Below are positions 2,518-30,233 of a stretch of DNA of 64,000 bases, in pieces. Positions within the stretch are counted from its first letter, which is position 1. Every line of letters starts with the position of its first letter. The stretch comes from Eubacteriaceae bacterium (GTDB lineage: Bacteria > Bacillota > Clostridia > Lachnospirales > Lachnospiraceae). The position numbers and the translations under genes were made by a program. A model generated the notes under the pieces. That model did not search any database. It was not told where the DNA came from and saw only the letters and a program-made list of their open reading frames with translations. The stretch is from the NCBI GenBank assembly GCA_910575665.1, contig CAJTFB010000020.1:1-64000 (forward strand). The letters are read 5' to 3'.

Positions 2518-2653
2518 ATGTGCAAATAAGATTTCTTACCTCCGATAATAGGAGATTAAATCTCTTATTACCAGAGATTTCACATCGTTTTATAGGATAC
2601 CACATCTCTGTAAAATAAAAAGGTAAAAATTCAGAGTACAGGTGGTGGAACTT

Positions 2654-2767
2654 ATGGACAAAAGGAACAATGATTTTGACTTTGATTTCAGACCGCTAGG
2701 ACTGGCAATCAAAAAAGCCCGTAAAGCCCAAGGCGTAACCAGAGAACAGCTTGCAAAAATCATTGCT
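2654..2767 (+). pseudogene. 5' fragment of an XRE-family HTH regulator
   Basis: The first 38 or so codons encode the start of an XRE helix-turn-helix domain (PLGLAIKKARKAQGVTREQL), typical of regulators carried on Firmicute integrative elements. Family resemblance stops abruptly after AKII at about 2767, where the sequence becomes the reverse complement of a mobC gene. The remaining frame to 2923 is antisense mobC and is not a protein. Remnant of a rearranged mobile element. Confidence 0.7.
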
Positions 2768-2860
2768 TGTGGGGACGAGCTTCATTTTTTCCTCAATCAG
2801 TTTCCTTTCTTCCTCTGTCACATAGAATTTGACCTGTATTGTCCTTTTGCGTCCGTTCAT
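2768..2860 (-). pseudogene. 5' fragment of mobC (relaxosome accessory protein)
   Basis: Codons 1-31 begin MNGRKRTIQVKFYVTEEER, the usual start of MobC-like relaxosome proteins of conjugative and mobilisable transposons. AAAGGAG lies 10 nt upstream of the ATG. The gene is cut at codon 31 by the junction with the opposing XRE fragment, so the helical DNA-binding remainder and the relaxase that normally follows are missing. Confidence 0.7.
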
Positions 2861-2996
2861 GGGTTTTCGCTCCTTTCCGTTCTCATAGAGGGTTTGGGAC
2901 ACTTCCCAACAAGCCATTTCTGACCGACCGGGCGGGCAGAAATACGGAAAAGGGTACTCTTTTCCTATGCTTGCTAAGAAACTTTCTTCTCACTAC

Positions 2997-3308
2997 CTAC
3001 AACACCGGGAACCTCTGATTTGACGGATTTTTGCAAAAGAAAAACGCCGCTATTTGCGACGCTCCCCATAGCAGCACATCCACATTTGGGAAAAAGAATT
3101 GGTCTACCGATACATCTAAAAAGGTGACAAGTTCATAAAAGATTTGTAGGCTTAGGTGCTGCCCGCTGTTCTCAATGGACGCGATATAGCGCGGCGCAAT
3201 GTTCAGCTTGTCTGCTAACTGGTTGCGCGATATGCCCTTTGCCTTTCTTGCTTCTTTAATGGCTTGCCCGAAAGCCTTAAAATCATACTTCACTTTATCC
3301 TGCTTCAT
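2997..3308 (-). CDS. XRE-family transcriptional regulator with an unusual C-terminus
   Basis: A 103-residue protein. Residues 8-70 form an XRE helix-turn-helix domain (AFGQAIKEARKAKGISRNQL, then RYIASIENSG) of the kind found beside mob genes of integrative elements. The start is the ATG at 3308, preceded by AGGGTG. After QFFFP the family's usual charged tail is replaced by about 30 residues rich in Phe and Ala, so the reading frame probably runs into rearranged or non-coding sequence. The segment from here to the mobC start keeps the normal gene order of such elements. It may be functional, since the DNA-binding domain is whole. Confidence 0.65.
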   Translation of the reverse strand: MKQDKVKYDFKAFGQAIKEARKAKGISRNQLADKLNIAPRYIASIENSGQHLSLQIFYELVTFLDVSVDQFFFPNVDVLLWGASQIAAFFFCKNPSNQRFPVL

Positions 3309-3428
3309 ATTTTTCACCCTATTACATTTTACCGTTCACCTTTCTATCTTGGATATGATTACACATATCACAGTATTGACAGCAATAGAGCATATATACC
3401 TTTCTTTGTAAACTTTCGTGGTGAGATA

Positions 3429-3457
3429 TTGACATCATAATCTTGATTGTTTATAAT
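3429..3457 (+). promoter_or_regulatory. Consensus sigma-A promoter for the leader ORF and MATE gene
   Basis: TTGACA (3429-3434), 17 bp, TATAAT (3452-3457): a perfect consensus match. Transcription should start near 3464, about 27 nt before the 40-codon ORF. A promoter this strong in front of tandem terminators fits control by attenuation. Confidence 0.8.
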
Positions 3458-3490
3458 AAGGCTGTAAAATTAAATGAAAGGGTGAGCACA

Positions 3491-3613
3491 ATGAAGTTAT
3501 ACGGAAAATTTTGTATTGGACGTGGCTCCGAACAACTGTATATTACAAAACATTGTGCGGAGCCTAATATGAAAACATTTTATGAAAAGGCGTATTCCAA
3601 AACAGATAAGTAG
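3491..3613 (+). CDS. 40-residue leader peptide or small protein
   Basis: ATG to TAG, 40 codons, beginning MKLYGKFCIGRGSEQLY. AAAGGGTGAG lies upstream. I recognise no family. It is the only ORF between a consensus promoter and two strong terminators, and a MATE exporter gene follows. This layout matches resistance genes whose leader peptide translation senses ribosome-targeting drugs and prevents termination. That role is inference; it could also be a stand-alone small protein. Confidence 0.55.
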   Translation: MKLYGKFCIGRGSEQLYITKHCAEPNMKTFYEKAYSKTDK

Positions 3614-3664
3614 TTTTGGATTTGTTCTTATGCTTTTTCATAGATAATCTTATTATGCTAATCG

Positions 3665-3700
3665 GGTCGTAGACAATGTTTTGTCTGCGACCTTTTGTTT
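3665..3700 (+). terminator. First terminator or attenuator before the MATE gene
   Basis: GGTCGTAGACAA pairs with TTGTCTGCGACC (one G-T wobble) and is followed by TTTTGTTT. A CTACGA at about 3708-3713 can pair with TCGTAG in the left arm and could form a competing structure. Confidence 0.75.
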
Positions 3701-3718
3701 ATAACGACTACGATTTAT

Positions 3719-3760
3719 AAGCAGAGGGCGCACATGATCGTGCTTACCCTCTGCTTTTTT
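3719..3760 (+). terminator. Second terminator or attenuator before the MATE gene
   Basis: AAGCAGAGGG pairs with CCCTCTGCTT and is followed by six T residues. The loop contains an inner GCAC/GTGC stem. It ends about 24 nt before the MATE start codon. Confidence 0.8.
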
Positions 3761-3783
3761 GCGTTAAGAAAGGAAATTGTCTA

Positions 3784-5154
3784 ATGAAAGAAGAACAAGA
3801 TTTAACCACAGGAAGTGTATCAAAAAAGCTAATCATATTTGCACTTCCTTTGCTGTTTGCTAATCTATTACAAGCCTTTTACAGTATTGTCGATATGTTG
3901 GTTGTTGGTAGAATTGTAGGAGAAACGGGACTTGCCGCAATCAGTAATGCGTCTATGATAAGTTTTATCATCAATTCAATTTGTATCGGCGTTACAATGG
4001 GCGGCACTGTATTAGTCGCTCAATTTAAAGGGGCTAATGACGAACAAGGACAAAGTGAAACAGTAGGAACACTATTTTCAATATCTTTAATTGCTTCGCT
4101 TATCGTTACAGTTTTAGGATTGCTTGTATATAAACCTCTTTTCAGGTTACTAAATGTGCCCGCAGTTTCCATGCAGGACGCTTGCGAGTACATGGAAATC
4201 ATCTGCTATGGCACGGTATTTGTGTTTGGTTATAATGCTGTTTGCTCTATTATGAAAGGTTTTGGGGATTCCAAAAGTCCACTCTATTTTATAGCAATAG
4301 CAACGGTCGTAAACATTGTGTTGGACATAACTTTAGTTGGTGTTTTGGGTATGGGAACAAAAGGGGCTGCATATGCTACCATTTTCTCACAGGGAGCTTC
4401 CCTTTTGATTTCAATCATTCACTTGAAAAGAAACAACTTTGTCTTTGATTTTAAGGCACGGCACTTTGCGATTAAACGGGAAAAGTTGGTAGTTATTTTG
4501 AAAGTCGGATTGCCTACGGCTATTCAAATGGTGGTTGTCAACATTTCTTATCTTTTGATTACCGGAATGCTCAATTATTTTGGCGTGTCGGTTGCTGCCG
4601 CATCTGGCGTTGGTCTAAAAGTCAATACATTTGCAGGTATGCCCTGTTGGGCAATCGGTCAAGCCGTAACAGCTATGGTAGGGCAGAATATAGGCGCAAA
4701 TAATGTAGAACGTGTTAAGAATACAACAAAAACAGGACTGCGCCTAAATATTATGATGACGCTAATCGTAATAATATTTGTTCAAATATTTGCAAGACAA
4801 ATCATAATGCTGTTTAACCCGGCAAACCCGGAAGTGATTGAGGACGGAATACGATATTTAAGAATATGTTGTGGAATGAACAGCTTGGTTTATGCGGTCA
4901 TGTATACATTTGACTCTTTTGCTATTGGAATTGGCTCTGCTAATGTTGCTATGACAAATGCACTTTTAGACGCAGTAATCGTCCGGCTTCCTGTAAGCTG
5001 GCTGTTAGCTTTCACAGTAAATATGGGATTTCCCGGCATATATATCGGGCAAGCTGTTTCCCCACTTTTACCCGCAATCGTTGGTTTGCTCTATTTCAAA
5101 AGCAAGGTTTGGGAAAGTAAAAGGCTGATAAACCGTACAGGAAGTGAGGGGTAG
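3784..5154 (+). CDS. MATE family multidrug exporter
   Basis: A 456-residue inner-membrane protein with twelve predicted hydrophobic segments in two MATE repeats, the usual family length. MATE transporters expel cationic drugs, dyes or metabolites in exchange for Na+ or H+. AAAGGA precedes the ATG by 9 nt. It lies in mobile-element debris behind a leader ORF and two terminators, and a cysteine-rich KTR protein gene follows after 2 bp; this pairing is seen in other integrative elements. It is separate from the chromosomal-type MATE gene at 13.7-15.1 kb. The substrate cannot be read from sequence. Confidence 0.9.
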   Translation: MKEEQDLTTGSVSKKLIIFALPLLFANLLQAFYSIVDMLVVGRIVGETGLAAISNASMISFIINSICIGVTMGGTVLVAQFKGANDEQGQSETVGTLFSISLIASLIVTVLGLLVYKPLFRLLNVPAVSMQDACEYMEIICYGTVFVFGYNAVCSIMKGFGDSKSPLYFIAIATVVNIVLDITLVGVLGMGTKGAAYATIFSQGASLLISIIHLKRNNFVFDFKARHFAIKREKLVVILKVGLPTAIQMVVVNISYLLITGMLNYFGVSVAAASGVGLKVNTFAGMPCWAIGQAVTAMVGQNIGANNVERVKNTTKTGLRLNIMMTLIVIIFVQIFARQIIMLFNPANPEVIEDGIRYLRICCGMNSLVYAVMYTFDSFAIGIGSANVAMTNALLDAVIVRLPVSWLLAFTVNMGFPGIYIGQAVSPLLPAIVGLLYFKSKVWESKRLINRTGSEG

Positions 5155-19928: not shown

Positions 19929-20813
19929 TTAATGCACTGCCGCTAATTCTTTTGGTTCATTGGATAATGTCACTGCCAGTGCCCCAGGTCCGATATGACA
20001 GGAAACACTGAGAGACAGCGGATCAATATGGATATCATGTCTTGGGAAAAGCAAATTTAGCTCCTCCCTGAATTTCTCCGCCTCTTCCCGGTTCTGGGTA
20101 TGGGCAATGTCTATATACATGTTTCCCGAATCTGCAAAACGATGTTCCAGATCCGAAGAGATGGCCTTGATCATGGTCTGCTTTGCCTGCTTTAACGTCT
20201 TAACTTTTGCATAGGAATCCAGCTTGTCTCCCTGGATCTGCAGCACAGGCTTGATGCGCAGCACCGTTCCGATGGCCGCCACAGCCGGCGTCAACCTGCC
20301 ACCCTTTTTCAGATATTTTAATGTATCTACCATAATATAAATACTGCTCTCAAGCTTATCTCTGGTCAAAATATCAAAGATCTCCTTTCCTGAGAACCCT
20401 CTATCTGCTAATTCCTTTGCCTGAAGTACCGACCTTCTCTGAGTCACGGAGATCCTCTGGTTGTCTACCACATAGACCCTGCCCTCAAACTCATCTTCCT
20501 GAGCCAACATCATTGCTGTGGCACAGGAGCTGCTGATGCCGCTAGACATAGGAATATGTACGATCTCATCGTACTCCTTCAATCCCTGTGTCCAAATCTC
20601 CATAATGGTCTCCGGTGACGGCTGAGAAGTAGATACCTCTGCCCTGTCATCCTGAAGCGCTCGGTAAAAATCCTCTTGGGTCATCGTTATATCTTCGAGA
20701 TATTGAGTCTCATTGATAAAAAACGGCATCGGCACCACCTCAATACCCATTTCCTCGCCCTGCCGCTGCGTGATCCCACTATTGCTATCCGTAATGATCT
20801 TTACCCTACTCAT
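19929..20813 (-). CDS. DegV family fatty-acid-binding protein
   Basis: A 294-residue DegV protein. It has the N-terminal KIITDSNSGI segment, the SQPSPE stretch and the IPMSSGISSSCATA serine cluster that contacts the fatty-acid carboxylate. Family members act as FakB, presenting exogenous fatty acids to the kinase FakA; some have other lipid ligands. Its ATG overlaps the EcfS stop codon (ATGA), so it is translationally coupled as the last gene of the ECF operon. Why a lipid-binding protein sits there is not clear. Confidence 0.88.
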   Translation of the reverse strand: MSRVKIITDSNSGITQRQGEEMGIEVVPMPFFINETQYLEDITMTQEDFYRALQDDRAEVSTSQPSPETIMEIWTQGLKEYDEIVHIPMSSGISSSCATAMMLAQEDEFEGRVYVVDNQRISVTQRRSVLQAKELADRGFSGKEIFDILTRDKLESSIYIMVDTLKYLKKGGRLTPAVAAIGTVLRIKPVLQIQGDKLDSYAKVKTLKQAKQTMIKAISSDLEHRFADSGNMYIDIAHTQNREEAEKFREELNLLFPRHDIHIDPLSLSVSCHIGPGALAVTLSNEPKELAAVH

Positions 20814-21520
20814 AACCTGCTCTCCTTTTTCTGTTCAATCAAATGATATTTTATTTTAACCCTCGTCAGCCTACTTAACACTGGTTTGTGAAGCAGTACA
20901 AGGAATATAACCGTTGATACGCCGAACATAAGATTCATTGGCAAACCTGTTCCGTATACCCACAGGATGGAATTCCATGTATTTTCTCCCATGGAATAAA
21001 ATAGTGTATTGATATCCACAATACCTCCATAGACTACAACAACGGATATCAACCCATAGACTGAGATTGTAAACCGATTCACCGGCACCTTTCGGAACAC
21101 AATCCCAGCAAAAAAGCCCACCATGCCCAATGCAAACATCTGAAAGGGTGTCCAGGAACCTTGTCCAAAATAAAAATTGGATACAAAAGCACTGACAGCT
21201 CCTGTGATAAATCCTGACTCTGCCCCCAGTGAAATTCCTGTGATGATGACCACAGCCGCCAGCGGCTTGATCTGGGGAAGAATGAAAAAAGAAACCCGCG
21301 AAACCACTCCGATGGCACACATCACAGCAATGATCGTCAGCTCAGCCACAGAAGGCCTTCGGTTCTCAAACCCAAGAACGAACAATATCACTCCTGCTAA
21401 CATGATTGCCAGACTGACATAATAATATTCTCTGCCCTTCAATACCAAAAGACTATAAACTAGAAGTGCGATGCAAAAGATCAACGCCACCATGTATCCC
21501 CACACTCTTTTATTCTTCAT
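20810..21520 (-). CDS. ECF transporter substrate-binding S component
   Basis: A 236-residue membrane protein with six or seven hydrophobic segments and the S-component-like stretch SNFYFGQGSWTPFQMFA. S components bind a vitamin or its precursor in the membrane and dock on the EcfT/EcfA module. The start at 21520 has GAAAGG 8 nt upstream and overlaps the ATPase gene by 11 bp. The ligand is inferred to be a corrinoid from the nearby cobalamin riboswitch and the two DUF4430 proteins; sequence alone does not prove it. Confidence 0.75.
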   Translation of the reverse strand: MKNKRVWGYMVALIFCIALLVYSLLVLKGREYYYVSLAIMLAGVILFVLGFENRRPSVAELTIIAVMCAIGVVSRVSFFILPQIKPLAAVVIITGISLGAESGFITGAVSAFVSNFYFGQGSWTPFQMFALGMVGFFAGIVFRKVPVNRFTISVYGLISVVVVYGGIVDINTLFYSMGENTWNSILWVYGTGLPMNLMFGVSTVIFLVLLHKPVLSRLTRVKIKYHLIEQKKESRL

Positions 21521-23000
21521 AAATAAACCTTTCTGCCACGATCTGCGGATACCTGTCTCCCACAATCCGTTGAATTGCTGTTGTATAAAAAAGCCCTCCC
21601 CGGAAAAAATCCTGTGTCTTCATCGGCGGTGAAATCTCCGCGTCAAAACTCATCGACATATATTCGCAGGTATTGGCGGCAAATTCCACATCGTGAGATA
21701 CCACGATCACGGTCTTTCCCGCCTCTGCCAATTCTACCAGCCATAAGCCAAACTGTTTTTTCCAAAAGGGATCCAGTCCTTTCGTCGGTTCGTCAAACAA
21801 AAAGATGTCCCCGTCCTGCTCATATAAATACGCCATGGCGGTCCGCTGCATCTGACCACCGCTCACATCATAGGGATGCCTGGCAAGAATCGAATGCAGA
21901 CCAAATTTTTCCATCGCCGCTTCCGTTTTTATTATATCACAGATCCGGTCTCCGATAAACATGTATTTTGGCTCCTGAGGCAGATAAGAAATCCTACCCT
22001 GAATTTTCATTTTTCCGTGATAACATTTTTCTGCTCCCGCAAGCACTTTTAAAAAAGTAGATTTTCCGGTGCCATTTCCGCCGGCGATGCCATAAATCCT
22101 GCCGGGCACTGCCTCAAAACAAACCTCCCTAAGCACATCTTTTCCCTTTTTCTCATAGCGAAAAAACAAGTTGCGGCATTCAATAGACGGGATTCTCCCC
22201 GTTTCTTCCAGAGATCGTTCCGAATCCACGACCGAGCACTGAATATCATTTCCATAAAACCAGTTCCGGCATTCTTTCACACTGGAAGGACAGGCACTTC
22301 TTTCCTCCGAAAATCGATGATAGAACCGGACAAAAGAGGGCATATAATCCAAAAATTCCTCCGATAATTCAGAATGGCATATTTTTTCATATACCTGATC
22401 CAGCCGCCCCCAGGCAGCGATCTGTCCCTCGTGGAGCACCATCATTTTATCACAAAGCGCCAGCACTTCTTCCAGCCGCTGTTCCACGAGAATAACCGTG
22501 ATCCCCAGTTGGGAATTCAGCCGCCGCAAGATATCCAGAAAAGCAGATGCTGCCATGGGATCCAATTGTGCGGTGGGCTCATCCAGCAGGATCACCTCCG
22601 GATCTGTCACCAATACTGAGGCAAGATTCAAAAGCTGTTTTTCCCCTCCCGACAGAGAATAGGTATCTCTCTCCATCCAGTCTTCCATACCAAAATACGT
22701 AGCGGTACCGGCGATGGCGTGCCGCATCTTCTCTGTCTGAATTCCCATATTCTCCATCCCAAAAGCCAGCTCATGCCGTACCTTATCCGTCACGATCTGA
22801 TTGGAAGGATTCTGAGATACATAACCAAACTCCTGATGTGCTTCCTTGATACAGCGCAGGAGCGTCGTCTTACCAGATCCCGAAGCTCCGCAGACCACGA
22901 CAAACTCTCCTCTCAACACATCAAAGGAAACGTTTTTTAACACGACTTCTGTACTCCCGCCGTATGTATAGCTTATATTTTTGAAACAATATGTCTCCAT
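21510..23000 (-). CDS. Double-ATPase of an ECF transporter (EcfA-EcfA' fusion)
   Basis: A 496-residue protein with two ABC ATPase domains in tandem. Domain 1 (about 1-225) has GASGSGKTT, LSGGEKQLL and VILLDEPTAQLDP. Domain 2 (about 275-485) has GGNGTGKST, DVSGGQMQR and IFLFDEPTKGLDP. Most ECF systems use two separate ATPase genes; fused forms occur in dedicated (group I-like) systems. It overlaps ecfT by 28 bp and the S-component gene by 11 bp, consistent with one tightly coupled operon. Confidence 0.9.
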   Translation of the reverse strand: METYCFKNISYTYGGSTEVVLKNVSFDVLRGEFVVVCGASGSGKTTLLRCIKEAHQEFGYVSQNPSNQIVTDKVRHELAFGMENMGIQTEKMRHAIAGTATYFGMEDWMERDTYSLSGGEKQLLNLASVLVTDPEVILLDEPTAQLDPMAASAFLDILRRLNSQLGITVILVEQRLEEVLALCDKMMVLHEGQIAAWGRLDQVYEKICHSELSEEFLDYMPSFVRFYHRFSEERSACPSSVKECRNWFYGNDIQCSVVDSERSLEETGRIPSIECRNLFFRYEKKGKDVLREVCFEAVPGRIYGIAGGNGTGKSTFLKVLAGAEKCYHGKMKIQGRISYLPQEPKYMFIGDRICDIIKTEAAMEKFGLHSILARHPYDVSGGQMQRTAMAYLYEQDGDIFLFDEPTKGLDPFWKKQFGLWLVELAEAGKTVIVVSHDVEFAANTCEYMSMSFDAEISPPMKTQDFFRGGLFYTTAIQRIVGDRYPQIVAERFIYEE

Positions 23001-23818
23001 CTAAGTTCCTCCCTGATATTTATCCCAAAAGGAATAAAAAACAATAGAATAAATAAAAGGTACGCTCCTGTCCCCATTCCATCCCTGTTGTAATCTATAT
23101 AAGGAAAGGCAAGAAATCTAGTCTGGGAGCAGGCATACATACCCATCCCTACCGAAACTGTAAAAAACAGATATACAATTAATGCCAGATCTCTTCCTTT
23201 AAACCCTCGGGCATAAATGCTGGTCCGTCTCTTTCTCTCTGGCTGTGTTCCGTACCCACGGTCTCTCATAGCAGTGCCCATTTCCAATGAATCTTCCAAG
23301 GCAAGTCCCACCAGCGTTGTGAGAATGCCCGATTGCAGTTTATGGTTCTCCCGAATTTTTTTATAATCCCGTCGAATTTTTGGCATCATCCGTAATGCCA
23401 TAGAAAATAAAAGGGAAGCATGGGGTAGCCGATTTCCGAAAAGACACAAGATCTTTTCCGAAGTCATCATCTGGCTACAGCACCCAAACATCAGAAGCGA
23501 AGCTGCCAAAAGAGTCCCTGTCATACAGCCGTAGAATAAACATTCCACTGTCACAGGAAGTTCACCCATCCAGCACAGTACCGTGACTCCCCGGTGGTTG
23601 ACCAGGGCATTGATTCCACCGCAGATAACAACCATCCCTAGACATTTTACCACAAAACCCATTCCCGCAGACATACCTTTCAGATACAGGTAAAAAGCGC
23701 TCTGACTGAGGAGGGCAATCCCCAGGAGCACCGGATCAAAAACAAAAATCGTAATAACTGTCACCGCCACAAAATACATGAAGATCACCGTGGGATGAAA
23801 CTTACTGAAACCATTCAC
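22973..23818 (-). CDS. ECF transporter transmembrane T component
   Basis: A 281-residue membrane protein of the EcfT/CbiQ family with five or so hydrophobic segments and the coupling-helix arginine motif AMRDRGYGTQPERKRR. It links the ATPases to the S component. The GTG at 23818, with AAAGGAGG 7 nt upstream, is a better start than the longer frame from 23881, which would overlap the DUF4430 gene. Confidence 0.85.
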   Translation of the reverse strand: MNGFSKFHPTVIFMYFVAVTVITIFVFDPVLLGIALLSQSAFYLYLKGMSAGMGFVVKCLGMVVICGGINALVNHRGVTVLCWMGELPVTVECLFYGCMTGTLLAASLLMFGCCSQMMTSEKILCLFGNRLPHASLLFSMALRMMPKIRRDYKKIRENHKLQSGILTTLVGLALEDSLEMGTAMRDRGYGTQPERKRRTSIYARGFKGRDLALIVYLFFTVSVGMGMYACSQTRFLAFPYIDYNRDGMGTGAYLLFILLFFIPFGINIREELRWRHIVSKI

Positions 23819-23870
23819 AGGCACTCCTCCTTTCCATTCAACGACGCCAATTAACTCGAACTGCCCCGAC

Positions 23871-24758
23871 TTAATATTCACAGGTATAATTGAATATCAC
23901 CTGATCTCCTTTTTCCAATTTGTATTTATTGCAGCCATTGCCCGGATCTTTTCCATTGACGGAATACATCCACCCGCTCTCATCTCCGCAATCAAACTCA
24001 TACAGGTTATGTATGCCCTTGATATAATAAGTAGAATATAACGGAGTAAACACATAGTCCAAATGGATCTCTCTCTCTTTACACACCCGTTTCAGCACGT
24101 CAAAGACTGTCTCTCCTTCCTCAAAAATAAAGGTTCCCTTCAGAATCATTCCATCTTTCGGTATCACTTTTTTGGCGCTTTCACTCAGCTTGTCCATATG
24201 GGAAAAAACTTCCTGGCAGGTGATGGTAAGACTGCATTCCTTCTTCTCCTGTGCCGTCGCACTCGATGCAACCGGGGGCTGTGTCGATGCCGGAGTAGCG
24301 GCTTGAGTACTTTTTTTCGGACTCTTCGTGCTCTGGGACTTTGGTTCGTATCCAGTGGTCTTTTTTGGAGATTTTGTTTTAGCCGATGACTGATCCGCGG
24401 TCTTCTTCCCTGTCTTTTTGTCTGTTTTATTATCTGCTTTTTTATCTGGTTCTATGGATCTCTTCGGTTCTTTCTTATGGTCGTTATTCTTTTTGGAAGA
24501 CACTTTCTCTTTGGTGTCTTCTTTTTTCCGGAGGGCGGCAGAACTCACCGCTGCTTCTCTGAGATCGCTGGAAGTAATGGCTGATCTGGTCTCTTCCTTC
24601 TGAACCGCAGAAACAGTTTCTCCATGGGATATTACTTCGCTCTCTATTACACCAGTAGGTTTTTTTTCACTTCCCCCGTTTCCTTTTATAACCAACACTG
24701 TGCTCAATACAGTGATGGCCAGTAGGCAGCCTAAAATTATTTTTTTATTGCCATTCAA
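23871..24758 (-). CDS. Membrane-anchored DUF4430 (transcobalamin-like) protein
   Basis: A 295-residue protein: an N-terminal membrane anchor (about 5-24), a long Lys/Ser/Thr-rich linker (about 30-165), and a C-terminal DUF4430 domain (about 175-295) with GETVFDVLKRVC, YIKGIHNLYEFDCG, GWMYSVNGKDP and KLEKGDQVIFNYT. DUF4430 resembles the C-terminal beta domain of transcobalamin and intrinsic factor. It is the first gene of the ECF operon, so it probably hands ligand to the importer from the cell-wall side. The start is TTG with GGGG about 11 nt upstream, so the 5' end is less certain. Confidence 0.8.
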   Translation of the reverse strand: MNGNKKIILGCLLAITVLSTVLVIKGNGGSEKKPTGVIESEVISHGETVSAVQKEETRSAITSSDLREAAVSSAALRKKEDTKEKVSSKKNNDHKKEPKRSIEPDKKADNKTDKKTGKKTADQSSAKTKSPKKTTGYEPKSQSTKSPKKSTQAATPASTQPPVASSATAQEKKECSLTITCQEVFSHMDKLSESAKKVIPKDGMILKGTFIFEEGETVFDVLKRVCKEREIHLDYVFTPLYSTYYIKGIHNLYEFDCGDESGWMYSVNGKDPGNGCNKYKLEKGDQVIFNYTCEY

Positions 24759-24935
24759 ATGTGTTTCATCCCCTTTTGCCTTCTATGTATTATGACTATA
24801 AATTCTCTGACAAAATGTCCATTAAGTTTTATTTTATCATATTATTTTCTTTTCTGCCATTGAATTTTTGTGCATATTCTTTGCACCAAAAATACAAAAA
24901 TTATTTCTTTAACCCCCTATCTTTTTTCTCAAATC

Positions 24936-24946
24936 CATGTTATAAT
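24936..24946 (+). promoter_or_regulatory. Extended -10 promoter before the cobalamin riboswitch
   Basis: TGTTATAAT is a TGn-extended -10 (hexamer 24941-24946). No good -35 is visible, which extended -10 promoters tolerate. The riboswitch begins about 30 nt downstream. Confidence 0.5.
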
Positions 24947-24975
24947 AATGCAAATTTATTTTAATATAAGTAGCT

Positions 24976-25212
24976 GTATTGGTTTCTGGTGACACACTGC
25001 TGTCACATTTACATGCACAGGCATGTGAGCAGAATTAATAGGGAAGCCGGTTCGATTCCGGCACAGCCCCCGCTGCCGTATTTGAGGATGCCGATAACAG
25101 GATCGGAATGCTAGTCTTGCATTCCGTCAGCCACTGGAACAGCCCGACGGGCTATTATCTGGGAAGGCGTTATCAGCAATTGATGCATAAGTCGGAAGAC
25201 CTGCCATACAGT
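24976..25212 (+). ncRNA. Cobalamin riboswitch (AdoCbl/B12 element)
   Basis: It contains the landmarks GGGAAGCCGGTTCGATTCCG, GCACAGCCCCCGCTGCCGT, the B12 box core GCCACTG and the closing AAGTCGGAAGACCTGCC. A perfect CCGGTTCGATTCCGG hairpin and the ATTCCG/CGGAAT arm are visible. It reads toward the secreted DUF4430 and PQQ-like genes, with a terminator about 120 nt downstream. Ligand binding should favour that terminator and shut the genes off when corrinoid is plentiful. Confidence 0.93.
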
Positions 25213-25242
25213 CTGAAATATAACCTTTCGGAGGGAGAGGAA

Positions 25243-25251
25243 ATGTTTTGA
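25243..25251 (+). other. Two-codon ORF (AUG UUU UGA) behind a strong ribosome binding site
   Basis: GGAGGGAGAGGAA sits directly in front of ATG TTT TGA, 30 nt after the riboswitch. Either the start of a deleted gene or a minimal ORF that places a ribosome on the leader near the terminator. Confidence 0.4.
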
Positions 25252-25328
25252 CAACGTTAGGCTAAGAACTTATCCAATGATGTGATCACGATTGGTCTAT
25301 TTTTGTAGTACAAATAATGTCATTACTG

Positions 25329-25366
25329 CCCTTTATACCCTTTTCCGGATATAAAGGGATTTTTTA
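25329..25366 (+). terminator. Riboswitch expression-platform terminator
   Basis: CCCTTTATA pairs with TATAAAGGG, followed by ATTTTTTATTT. It separates the riboswitch from the 67-bp repeat and the first structural gene. A GC-rich dyad (GAACCCGAG/CTCGGGGGGTTC) follows at about 25378-25422. Confidence 0.8.
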
Positions 25367-25446
25367 TTTACACCCGCGAACCCGAGCGGTCTCGCGAATC
25401 GTGACACTCGGGGGGTTCTACTTATATTAAGATCAAAGAAATCAAC

Positions 25447-25513
25447 GATGAGAAACACGCTTTGCGAGTTTCTCACCTTCGCGGGCGGCGCCATGGCTTG
25501 TGCCTTCCGCGCA
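25447..25513 (+). repeat. 67-bp structured repeat, copy 1
   Basis: Identical at 66 of 67 bases to 26763-26829. It starts with a TGAGAAAC/GTTTCTCA hairpin containing an inner CGCTTTGCG stem, then a GC-rich stem (CGCGG/CCGCG). It lies just before the gene for the secreted DUF4430 protein. It is in frame with that gene but ahead of the signal peptide, so it is unlikely to be coding. Confidence 0.85.
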
Positions 25514-25555
25514 AACTACACAACAAGCGCTGACTGCGCAGAAATGAGGATGAGT

Positions 25556-26764
25556 ATGAAAACAAAAAAACGATTCATTGCCCTACTTCTCACTCTTGCC
25601 ATGATCTTTTCTGTTTCTGTGGTAGATGGGGAAATTTCGGCAAACACAAAAGCAGCCAATGACACGATCACGGTTACATTACGGGTTGAAGATTCCAACA
25701 AAACCCTGATTCCGCCCACGAAGATCACTCTGGACAAAGATACCGTGGCCACGATCAACGACACCTTTAACGCCTCCGTGGAGACACCAGTGCTTGAGAC
25801 TGCTCATGTGACCGCTGCCCACGCCCTGGCAAAATACATATCAGACCAATCCAAAACACCGGCTTCTGACCTGACCTTTGCTTACGGTAATCCTGCTAGC
25901 ATACTTGGGCAAGACACTCTGGACAGCTCCTACTTCTGGTCCTTCCGGGTAAACAATACCTCTCTGGTCATGGACGACGGTTTTACCCAGTACAACTTTA
26001 CCAGCTGCCCGATTCAGGATGGTGACAGTATCGTCGTATTCCGCCAATATTATAACTACACCACCAGCGAGTCCAGCTCCTATTCTTATTTTGATAAGGA
26101 ATTCTATGAGACGAAAGTGAACGAAAAAGTTTCTGTCACACTAAAGAAGGAAATTTTTGATGAGAACTGGAATACAGTAACTGTCCCGATAGCAGATCAA
26201 AATATCATCATCGCCATCGACAATACAGCTGGTTCTGGTCCAGTTCCTGACATCGCACAGGTGGCAACCACGGACAAAAACGGCATGGTAGATCTCACCT
26301 TTAACAAAGTGGGTACCTATGCCCTGTATTCCAGCAGTATGAATGCAGATGGTACTCCGGCAACATCCCGCGCTTACGCGAAAATCACCGTAAAAGATGA
26401 ACAGCCTACTGCCTCTGGCACACCGGCACCGCCAGCGCCTACTGTCACCCCGCCACCAACGAAACCACAACATCACAGCTGTGTGATAAAAAAACCCCTC
26501 GCACCCAAAAAAATAAAAGCCAAAGTAAAAAAGAAAAAAGTCACAATATCCTGGGAAAAAACGAATAACATAAAAGGATATGAAGTATTTTATTCAAAGA
26601 AAAATAAAAAGAACTTCAAAAGACTTTCCGTTACAAAAAAGACAAAAATAACAAAAAAATTAAAAAAAGGAAAGTACTTTGTAAAATGTCGCTGCTATAG
26701 GCTGTCAGGCGAAAGAAAGGTTTACAGTAACTATAGCAAGATTATTTCTTTTAAAGTAAAATGA
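25556..26764 (+). CDS. Secreted DUF4430 protein with a lysine-rich C-terminal domain
   Basis: A 402-residue protein. It has a signal peptide (MKTKKRFIALLLTLAMIF), a DUF4430 domain at about 35-180 (with AKYISDQSKTPASDLTF, YFWSFRVNN and IQDGDSIVVFRQYYN), an Ig-like region to about 285, a Pro/Thr linker, and a Lys-rich fibronectin-type-III-like domain (PKKIKAKVKKKKVTISWEK, GYEVFYSKK). DUF4430 points to binding of a corrinoid or related ligand. The basic domain may attach to wall polymers. The start at 25556 is chosen for its signal peptide and GAGGA upstream. Controlled by the cobalamin riboswitch. Confidence 0.8.
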   Translation: MKTKKRFIALLLTLAMIFSVSVVDGEISANTKAANDTITVTLRVEDSNKTLIPPTKITLDKDTVATINDTFNASVETPVLETAHVTAAHALAKYISDQSKTPASDLTFAYGNPASILGQDTLDSSYFWSFRVNNTSLVMDDGFTQYNFTSCPIQDGDSIVVFRQYYNYTTSESSSYSYFDKEFYETKVNEKVSVTLKKEIFDENWNTVTVPIADQNIIIAIDNTAGSGPVPDIAQVATTDKNGMVDLTFNKVGTYALYSSSMNADGTPATSRAYAKITVKDEQPTASGTPAPPAPTVTPPPTKPQHHSCVIKKPLAPKKIKAKVKKKKVTISWEKTNNIKGYEVFYSKKNKKNFKRLSVTKKTKITKKLKKGKYFVKCRCYRLSGERKVYSNYSKIISFKVK

Positions 26765-26829
26765 TGAGAAACACGCTTTGCGAGTTTCTCACCTTCGCGG
26801 GCGGCGCCATAGCTTGTGCCTTCCGCGCA
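26763..26829 (+). repeat. 67-bp structured repeat, copy 2
   Basis: Second copy, with one base different from copy 1. It begins inside the stop codon of the DUF4430 gene and ends 18 bp before the next ATG, so both riboswitch-controlled genes carry the same structured leader. Its hairpins are the same as in copy 1. Confidence 0.85.
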
Positions 26830-26847
26830 CAGCAAAGGAGACCAACC

Positions 26848-28548
26848 ATGAAACGAATATTATGCTTTCTGCTGATCGTCACTCTCTTTCTAATTCCCTG
26901 TTCCAGTGCCTATGCCTGGACTTCTTTTCGAAATGAAGAGGGGCGATCCGGAGCCAATACTATCCACGCCGCCACGCCAATTGATGCAAACACCACTGGT
27001 CCCAGATGGAAAAAGAAATTTACCCAAAGCATAGGATCTGCCATGAATTCTACTCCAATTATAACAGAAAAAAACATCTATATAGTAAATAAGGATATTT
27101 TGTATAAGACAGACAAAGAGGGAACGATCCTTACAACCCTCCGTCTTTGTGCCTCCATGAATTCCATGTGCCACATGGCTTCCGACGGAACGTATCTATA
27201 TATCCCCCTGGGAGGTGGTCTTCTGCAGTGCGTCGATATGGACGCCATGGCTGCTGTCTGGACCAGCGAATCTTTCGGCGGACAGTCATTGACCACCGTA
27301 TACGTTTATAACGGTTTGGTCTACGCAGGCACCACCAACGGAGACGGATCCGAGGGATGTTTTTACTGTGTAGAGGCAAAAGATGGAAAAACCAGGTGGA
27401 GCTATCAAAATAAGGAGTTACCCTGCGGATATTACTGGAGCGGTGCTGTTTCAGCCACATTATTCTCTACTGATTGCCTTTTATTTGGCGGGGACAATGG
27501 TGTCCTGGTCTCTCACAGCCTTACGGAAGACCAGGTATACGACACTCTGGATCTCACTTCCATCACCGGCTCCAGGGGGAAGATCCGTGCAGGAATCACA
27601 TACGATGCCGCATCCGATGCCTTCTATACCACCTCCAATAACGGATATCTGTACCAGATCCGCATGAACCAAAATGGAAACTTTGATACGGTAAATTCTG
27701 TTTTTTTAGGAGATTTTACCGATAAAACAGTCAACTGCACTAGTACTCCCACGATTTACAACGGCAGGGTCTATGTCTGCAGTTATTATGACAATGCCGG
27801 TCGTATCAGTGTCATCGATGCTGACACCATGCACACCATCTATGCTGCCACCACCGCCGGTACAGCAGATATAAAATCCTCTCCTCTCGTATCCACCGGA
27901 TATGCCACGGAAGAAAACCACCACCAGGTCTATGTATATTTTACCCAGAATACCGTGCCGGGAGGCATATATTATATCGAGGACAGTGCCATCTCTGACT
28001 CAGCAGATATAAAAACCTTATACGAGCCAAAAAACAATCCCCAGTTCTGTCTACAAAGCCTGGCGGCAGACACAGAGGGAACCCTGTACTATTCCAATGA
28101 TTCTGGTACCTTTTTTGCGGTTCACGAAGGCTTTGCTGCCAATGATCTCCTGCCATCGCCCTCTCCCACCGTCTCTCCCGAGACGCCAGCTATTTCCACA
28201 GAAAAACCGGCAGCCTCTGCAATTTTTTCTCCATCTCCGACGCCAGCCAACCAGCAGACGACTTCTGGTACCGCGCCAAAGAAAAAACTGCGTCCTGGTA
28301 AACCTTCCAGAATCAAAGTGAAAGCAAAGAAAAAATACCGCGGTAAATACAAGATAACCCTTTCCTGGAAAAAGGGGAACCATACCAAAAAGACACAGAT
28401 CAAAATAAAAGGCAAAAAGATGAAAATCGTCTCCGGCAGCAAATACACGCTGTCACTGAAAAAGGGAGTCTATACCATCCTTCTTTATGGATATATCTCC
28501 CCTTCACAAAAGAGCTCTGGCGCCAGAATACGCTTCCGCGTATCCTGA
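26848..28548 (+). CDS. Secreted PQQ-like beta-propeller protein with a lysine-rich C-terminus
   Basis: A 566-residue protein: signal peptide ending near AYA (about residue 23), a PQQ-like repeat propeller (about 40-430) with blades such as IITEKNIYIVNKDILYKTDK and VYNGLVYAGTTNGDG, a Pro/Ser/Thr linker, and a Lys-rich beta domain (about 480-566) like that of its neighbour. The start has AAAGGAG 7 nt upstream. Such propellers often act as binding scaffolds outside the cell. Co-transcribed with the DUF4430 gene, so it may share in ligand capture. No PQQ synthesis genes are present. Confidence 0.75.
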   Translation: MKRILCFLLIVTLFLIPCSSAYAWTSFRNEEGRSGANTIHAATPIDANTTGPRWKKKFTQSIGSAMNSTPIITEKNIYIVNKDILYKTDKEGTILTTLRLCASMNSMCHMASDGTYLYIPLGGGLLQCVDMDAMAAVWTSESFGGQSLTTVYVYNGLVYAGTTNGDGSEGCFYCVEAKDGKTRWSYQNKELPCGYYWSGAVSATLFSTDCLLFGGDNGVLVSHSLTEDQVYDTLDLTSITGSRGKIRAGITYDAASDAFYTTSNNGYLYQIRMNQNGNFDTVNSVFLGDFTDKTVNCTSTPTIYNGRVYVCSYYDNAGRISVIDADTMHTIYAATTAGTADIKSSPLVSTGYATEENHHQVYVYFTQNTVPGGIYYIEDSAISDSADIKTLYEPKNNPQFCLQSLAADTEGTLYYSNDSGTFFAVHEGFAANDLLPSPSPTVSPETPAISTEKPAASAIFSPSPTPANQQTTSGTAPKKKLRPGKPSRIKVKAKKKYRGKYKITLSWKKGNHTKKTQIKIKGKKMKIVSGSKYTLSLKKGVYTILLYGYISPSQKSSGARIRFRVS

Positions 28549-29231: not shown

Positions 29232-30233
29232 TTATTTAGTCTTCGGTGCTTTACTGGCAAATTCCGTATTCACCAGTTCCTCATAGGAAACCCGGTTGCT
29301 GAGTTCTCCACCAGATTCCAGAATATCCTGCAAAAGTTCAAAACTCTCCTTTTCAAAAACAAGATTGTCTTTCCAGGTCCCCTGGTCATAATATCGTTCT
29401 ACGATAGTAGTCAACGTTTCCCGCTCTGTCTCTTTGAACTGGGGCTGTATCACCTCTGCGATTTCCTGCGGCGTGTGGCTTTTTACAAAATCCATTCCCT
29501 TCTGGAGAGCGTTGGTAAACTTCTGAATGGTATCCGCATTTTTCTTGATATAACTTTCCTTGGCAGAATAAGCAGTATAGGGAACCATTCCGCTATCTAC
29601 TCCGAGAGAAGCTACCACCACACCTTTCTTTTCCTTTTCTAGTGAGGCCGCAAAGGGTTCAAATTCCACCGAGTAATCCCCCTGTCCTGAAGCAAAAGCT
29701 TCTGCGGTAAGTCCAAAATCGATATTCTGTACCATCTTCAGATCCTTCTTGGGATCCATGTTATTCTTCTTTAGTATGTATTCAAATACCATCTGCGGCA
29801 TACCGCCTTTCCTTCCTGCCAATACTGTCTTCCCTTTCAGTTTATCCCAGGTAAATTCTTCATCAGCTTTCCTTGCCACCAGAAAATTACCGGCGCGCTG
29901 TGTCAGCTGGGCAAAGTTGATAATTTTTTCTCCCGATCCCTCGTTAAATACATAGATCGATGCCTCCGATCCCATAAATCCAATGTCTGCCTCCCCTGAT
30001 AACACCGCTGTCATCACATTGTCGGCGCCAGAACCATTGACCAGTTTTACATCCAATCCTTCCTCTTTGAAATACCCTTTCTCAATCGCTACATACTGGG
30101 GAGCATAGAAAATGGAATGCGCCACTTCATTCAGTGTAATGGACGTCATCCCTTCCTCCTCCTTTTTTGCACAGCTGCACAAAGAAAGTACTAGTAGAGA
30201 AAAAATCAGCGCCAGAACCACGATTTTTTTCAT
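29232..30233 (-). CDS. Lipoprotein ABC substrate-binding protein, NMT1/THI5 type
   Basis: A 333-residue lipoprotein: the signal peptide ends at lipobox LCS-Cys21, followed by an NMT1/THI5-like (SsuA/ThiY) periplasmic-binding fold with APQYVAIEKGYFKEEGLDV, GEADIGFMGSE and LAGRKGGMPQMVFEYIL. Relatives bind thiamine pyrimidine precursors, sulfonates, nitrate or bicarbonate. No permease or ATPase gene is adjacent. The thi cluster lies 2 kb away, which makes a thiamine precursor possible but unproven. Confidence 0.85.
   Translation of the reverse strand: MKKIVVLALIFSLLVLSLCSCAKKEEEGMTSITLNEVAHSIFYAPQYVAIEKGYFKEEGLDVKLVNGSGADNVMTAVLSGEADIGFMGSEASIYVFNEGSGEKIINFAQLTQRAGNFLVARKADEEFTWDKLKGKTVLAGRKGGMPQMVFEYILKKNNMDPKKDLKMVQNIDFGLTAEAFASGQGDYSVEFEPFAASLEKEKKGVVVASLGVDSGMVPYTAYSAKESYIKKNADTIQKFTNALQKGMDFVKSHTPQEIAEVIQPQFKETERETLTTIVERYYDQGTWKDNLVFEKESFELLQDILESGGELSNRVSYEELVNTEFASKAPKTK

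Follow-up and report, generated by a model that had tools for sequence, protein, structure and literature searches.

ECF-CbrT of Lactobacillus delbrueckii (PDB 6FNP), an energy-coupling factor (ECF) transporter, is described in PMC5997447 as importing cobalamin and cobinamide, and corrinoid capture at the cell surface by BtuG and BtuH is known from Bacteroidetes. The locus described here occupies positions 19,929 to 28,548 of a 64,000-nucleotide stretch of DNA (the window; contig CAJTFB010000020.1, assembly GCA_910575665.1) from a Eubacteriaceae bacterium placed in the Lachnospiraceae. It combines a cobalamin riboswitch, putatively exported proteins related to the DUF4430 domain and a CbrT-type ECF importer, and is quite probably the means by which a B12-requiring Gram-positive bacterium acquires corrinoids. 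In PMC8941943, cobamide acquisition is said to be less known in Firmicutes and a BtuH homolog is mentioned near an ECF-like transporter in one of them. PMC6593275 calls it an open problem to find, in many genomes from the human gut, the transporters for B12 and for its precursors. One accessory protein had already been anticipated, since the annotation name "additional lipoprotein component of putative cobalamin ECF transporter" exists in a table of PMC9963975. In the open PMC full-text literature, no account was found that describes DUF4430 or transcobalamin-like proteins as capturing corrinoids in bacteria.

When compared to ECF-CbrT, the locus has an S component that is homologous over the membrane domain, and both have a separate T component and ATPase module and belong to the class of B12 importers that work without BtuF. 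Unlike ECF-CbrT, it has a dedicated fused AA' ATPase, its own T component, extracellular DUF4430 and propeller proteins and an adjoining riboswitch. With BtuG and BtuH of Bacteroides it shares putative surface capture proteins, with propeller and Ig-like modules, in a riboswitch-bearing corrinoid locus, although no outer membrane partner is expected here. The B12 domain of BtuH, presented in PMC8941943 as having no known structural homologs, differs from the transcobalamin-type domain of the window.

Organization of the locus

The source genome (4.19 Mb) is rated 97.98% complete. Two transcription units diverge, with the riboswitch, P0001 and P0002 on the plus strand and P0003, T, AA', S (P0004) and DegV on the minus strand, as follows:

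19929..20813, minus strand: DegV family protein, closing the operon (PF02645, 215 bits)
20810..21565, minus strand: P0004, ECF S component of CbrT type
21510..23000, minus strand: fused AA' duplicated ECF ATPase
22973..23881, minus strand: ECF T component, probably of a divergent CbiQ type
23871..24758, minus strand: P0003, putative N-terminal membrane anchor, Ser/Thr/Lys-rich linker and C-terminal DUF4430; TTG start
24963..25222, plus strand: cobalamin riboswitch aptamer (RF00174)
25329..25358, plus strand: terminator-like hairpin with a U run after it, probably the expression platform
25550..26764, plus strand: P0001, putatively secreted, with a predicted DUF4430-like domain (AF2 model, structural matches, hhalign), a second Ig/PKD-like domain and a Lys-rich C-terminal domain
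26848..28548, plus strand: P0002, putatively secreted PQQ/BamB-like beta-propeller with a Lys-rich C-terminal domain

The original prediction had proposed a cobalamin riboswitch at this place, and the covariance model scored it at 84.8 bits (gathering score 31.5; E 1.9e-19), the sole RF00174 match in the whole genome. The downstream hairpin has a fold z-score of -4.29, with none of 200 shuffled sequences folding equally well, and it probably forms the expression platform. The riboswitch heads the P0001-P0002 unit and the divergent ECF operon has none in front of it, in contrast with 60 relative loci in which an upstream riboswitch lies on the same strand; one of the loci mapped (L064) has an intermediate arrangement with one riboswitch per direction.

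Surface proteins

P0001 had been predicted as a riboswitch-linked DUF4430 protein. It is not recognised as such by Pfam, for which three of the 13 members of its family alignment reach E<=0.1 for DUF4430, and the assignment instead stands on a profile-profile comparison by hhalign of the P0001 family with the DUF4430 profile (96.7%, E 3.9e-10) and on the predicted fold. In the AF2 model of residues 36-310 (pLDDT 83.1), the top seven structural matches are haptocorrin or transcobalamin, and among the matches listed, cobalamin carriers were the only ones that fitted the N-terminal domain (about residues 36-170) on its own. This model matches the fold of the cobalamin-contacting C-terminal beta domain of transcobalamin-type carriers (transcobalamin, haptocorrin and intrinsic factor), so that P0001 is predicted to carry a transcobalamin-beta-domain-like, that is DUF4430-like, domain. 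The resemblance between DUF4430 and transcobalamin that had been put forward is thus supported by the P0001 model, by the PF14478 match of P0003 taken with the statement in PMC4350170 that a DUF4430 lies at the C-terminus of TCN proteins, and by a relative in which an alpha/alpha toroid is joined to DUF4430. Some relatives carry both of these domains in one protein. For the relative modelled (L134, positions 2592-3914), the best Foldseek matches of the toroid-DUF4430 model were transcobalamin, haptocorrin and intrinsic factor, although its domains are placed differently from those of the animal carriers (root-mean-square deviation about 22 A, TM-scores 0.32-0.49). The bacterial proteins further differ from these carriers in their wall or membrane anchors and in having weak sequence similarity to them. 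No alpha6/alpha6 toroid occurs among the Pfam matches of the window proteins, toroids being present in relatives, and none was found in the genome with a single query, whose empty result is uninformative.

P0002 is a propeller, as predicted (PQQ_2, 43.7 bits, cut-off 27.6). Both P0001 and P0002 appear to start with signal-peptide-like stretches and end in Lys-rich domains (residues about 281-404, pI 10.5, and about 475-566, pI 11.2, respectively). Matches to these domains recur on other proteins of the genome and the genus, and they are a candidate lineage-specific wall-association domain. P0003, which the original prediction had placed as an anchored protein at the head of the ECF operon, is the sole PF14478 match in the genome at E<=0.01 (66.2 bits, cut-off 23.8). 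It appears to bear an N-terminal membrane anchor, followed by a long linker of roughly 150 residues that is Ser/Thr/Lys-rich by composition and by the C-terminal DUF4430.

ECF importer

A search of the PDB with the single P0004 sequence returned one match at E<=1, 6fnp_A (E 4e-10), a chain that, from its length, appears to be CbrT itself. With a 28-sequence profile, 6fnp_A was matched at 4.7e-21, 4hzu_S at 7.2e-4 and the riboflavin uptake protein 3p5n at 3e-3. P0004 is therefore akin to CbrT rather than to other solved S components; clustering with non-corrinoid transporters, which had been set as the result that would count against corrinoid import, was looked for and the opposite was seen. 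The nearest named S relatives among the matches listed come from Lachnospiraceae and other Clostridia. It is highly improbable that P0004 serves another vitamin and adjoins a B12 riboswitch by chance: the Pfam family that P0004 passes (PF07155, 34.4 bits, cut-off 26.7) is a riboflavin-type ECF family and a folate-type match lies below the cut-off, but CbrT outscores the other PDB matches by many orders of magnitude, and the weaker S relatives of the stretches L092-L096, some of them short, come without DUF4430, toroid or riboswitch within the DNA collected.

As for the rest of the predicted operon, AA', S and DegV were confirmed by Pfam and the T protein was without a Pfam match. The latter shares 30-34% identity with 12 aligned relatives, and three of six T relatives scanned pass the CbiQ (PF02361) cut-off. 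The AA' protein has 496 aa with two ABC_tran stretches in one chain, and its best NCBIfam models are ECF ATPases, at scores below their equivalog cut-offs. Such T/ATPase modules presumably go by the names CbrU and CbrV.

Variations of these genes were observed among the relatives. In L048, L049, L055, L056 and many loci of the named set described below, AA' and S lie in a single open frame of ~800-1000 aa, as if one ATPase-S chain were produced, and the S genes of L085, L087, L089 and L090 (312-337 aa) have two overlapping partial S matches each, as if extended or partly duplicated. Among the loci mapped, a DegV gene downstream of S is confined to the window, the genus it belongs to and the near relatives L046, L097, L098, L099 and L103; in L132, a DegV gene sits on the opposite strand.

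B12 economy of the host

Two B12-binding proteins were found in the window genome, of which one appears to be a cobalamin-dependent methionine synthase (MetH-like, with the B12 motif DIHDIG in L177) and the other a radical-SAM B12-binding protein. CbiD belongs to anaerobic B12 synthesis, CobS to nucleotide-loop assembly and Peripla_BP_2 is the BtuF family; none of the three had a match in the window genome, control genomes being positive for each. Because B12-binding proteins are present and these three are not found, the host fits a B12 auxotroph for which this locus would be the only recognised uptake route, with the limits that other importer types were not searched and that the assembly may lack a small portion of the genome.

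These data also bear on whether the system imports mainly another corrinoid, such as cobinamide or other cobamides, with DUF4430 domains tuned to that ligand, which we regard as unlikely. As CobS was not found, the host could not use the known route to turn imported cobinamide into a complete corrinoid. In favour of this alternative, the riboswitch indicates no more than a response to a cobalamin-type coenzyme, and CbrT accepts both cobalamin and cobinamide (PMC5997447, as above).

Conservation of the locus

RF00174 was found in 17 of 39 genomes of the genus, the window's own included. In 12 of them, the next gene after the riboswitch, in the same orientation, is a P0001 homolog (partial and at a contig end in G219). 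Fifteen genus regions (L208-L222) were inspected. In seven (L208-L211, L213, L216 and L219), DegV-S-AA'-T-DUF4430 diverges from the riboswitch followed by the P0001 homolog and the propeller, L219 stopping at the contig edge. Four others (L212, L214, L215 and L218) have the riboswitch and P0001 homolog without an adjoining ECF cassette, L212 and L214 being uninformative as they begin at the contig start. In L217 the riboswitch is close to the contig end, in L220 a P0001 homolog stands alone, with neither riboswitch nor propeller nor cassette, and in L222 (G108, contig C10) the sole RF00174 match precedes a 1327-aa DUF4430 protein away from a riboswitch-less ECF locus.

At family level, a P0004 relative (E<=1e-5) occurs in 54 of 200 genomes, the window's own included, and RF00174 (E<=0.001) in 42 of the 53 others. 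Fifty-one stretches were collected (places in G124, G144 and G195 left out) and reduced to 46 by setting aside the five weakest, L092-L096. Four of these carry different S relatives with weaker matches, the fifth being a further stretch, and within the DNA collected none of the five has DUF4430, toroid, propeller or riboswitch; two are short, and L094 yielded no S gene. A second, named set was drawn from at least 589 confirmed S relatives; 80 loci were retained and 76 counted, no S gene having been picked in L111, L112, L139 and L168. Counts are given below for the family set (of 46) and the named set (of 76), respectively; many stretches of both sets are cut off by contig ends, and L048 and L138 are one DNA present in both, whose riboswitch is counted once. 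The riboswitch profile used was trained on 26 riboswitches, so that family loci match partly by construction, which the 80 named loci do not; it gave no match below E 1e-3, the threshold applied, in shuffled sequence.

An upstream riboswitch on the same strand was found in 25/46 and 35/76 loci, as opposed to 1/46 and 0/76 on the opposite strand and 0/46 and 5/76 downstream in the same orientation. In 40/46 and 54/76 loci, a same-strand DUF4430 gene is present at a distance of no more than 6 kb. Counting only open reading frames of 150 aa or more, the first one behind the riboswitch bears DUF4430, a P0001-type domain, a toroid or a propeller in 22/25 and 27/35 cases. In the remaining 11 loci it encodes T (6), AA'-S (1) or an unlabelled product (4). 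A propeller is present in just 7/46 and 6/76 loci and is fused to a DUF4430-type domain in 4/46 and 3/76. The co-occurrence of DUF4430, propeller proteins, ECF genes and B12 riboswitches that the original prediction had called for was thus found in the genus, the family and the named loci.

Several observations nevertheless weigh against a function in corrinoid capture and import. No upstream riboswitch was found in 21/46 and 41/76 loci (many cut by contig ends), L221 has the block without one, and the sibling loci L046, L097 and L098, which have P0001 and P0002 homologs (fused in L098), gave no RF00174 match even at E<=5. In the window genome, the ECF operon is not itself under the riboswitch. 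The PDB matches of the P0002 propeller are BamB and include no B12 binder. At the sequence level, transcobalamin is matched weakly (E 0.1 with the DUF4430 profile; E 0.35, rank 5, with the P0001-family profile), and a common fold does not establish ligand binding. Finally, L215 keeps the riboswitch, surface genes and DegV with no adjoining ECF cassette. This last case, together with the lone P0001 homolog of L220 and the recurrence of the Lys-rich domains on other proteins of the genome, would suit an ordinary ECF-CbrT importer whose neighbours are adhesins or wall proteins that track B12 status without handing over B12. Such an explanation seems quite improbable given that, among the matches listed, only cobalamin carriers fit the N-terminal domain of P0001 on its own, that in many loci the riboswitch is followed by genes for DUF4430, toroid and propeller proteins lying ahead of CbrT-type genes, and that propeller and DUF4430-type domains are found fused.

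Repeats and neighbouring gene

A 70-nt repeat occurs just 5' of both secreted genes (25444-25513 and 26760-26829) and forms two hairpins (z -3.55 and -3.42). With 13 whole or partial copies dispersed across the genome (87-100% identity), it gives the P0001 and P0002 reading frames a false shared N-terminus, so that the starts first listed, 25448 and 26761, were inflated; the true starts are likely 25550 or 25556 for P0001 and 26848 for P0002. Past a small Lys-rich reading frame adjoining the locus lies an NMT1/SsuA-type substrate-binding protein gene (29232-30233, minus strand), for which no B12 link was seen.

Proposed function and significance

Overall, the data support surface capture coupled to ECF import, as originally proposed. 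In this corrinoid-acquisition system, low cellular corrinoid would let transcription proceed past the terminator, and the cell would export P0001 and P0002, both kept at the wall by their very basic C-terminal domains. P0001 would hold cobalamin or a related corrinoid against its transcobalamin-beta-domain fold, with P0002 as a possible second capture or docking element, perhaps in a BtuG-like role. P0003, with its one-helix membrane tether, a linker of a length that may span the wall and its own DUF4430, would then take over the corrinoid and present it to the CbrT-type S component, and the T/AA' module would power import for MetH and other users; DegV may also contribute.

It is about an even question whether Clostridia and Paenibacillus-type bacteria more widely use riboswitch-controlled bacterial transcobalamins, made of an anchored toroid and DUF4430, that deliver corrinoids to an ECF importer of CbrT type. 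In that case the window would represent a derived form, in which the propeller has replaced the toroid and beta-type domains act alone, and an ancestry as corrinoid binders would be common with the animal carriers.

The locus names specific candidate proteins for surface B12 capture and ties DUF4430, an uncharacterised domain, to the import of corrinoids in many loci. It would provide a bacterial counterpart to animal transcobalamin that is open to direct expression and testing, and may bear on microbe-host competition for B12 and on the origin of the animal carriers.
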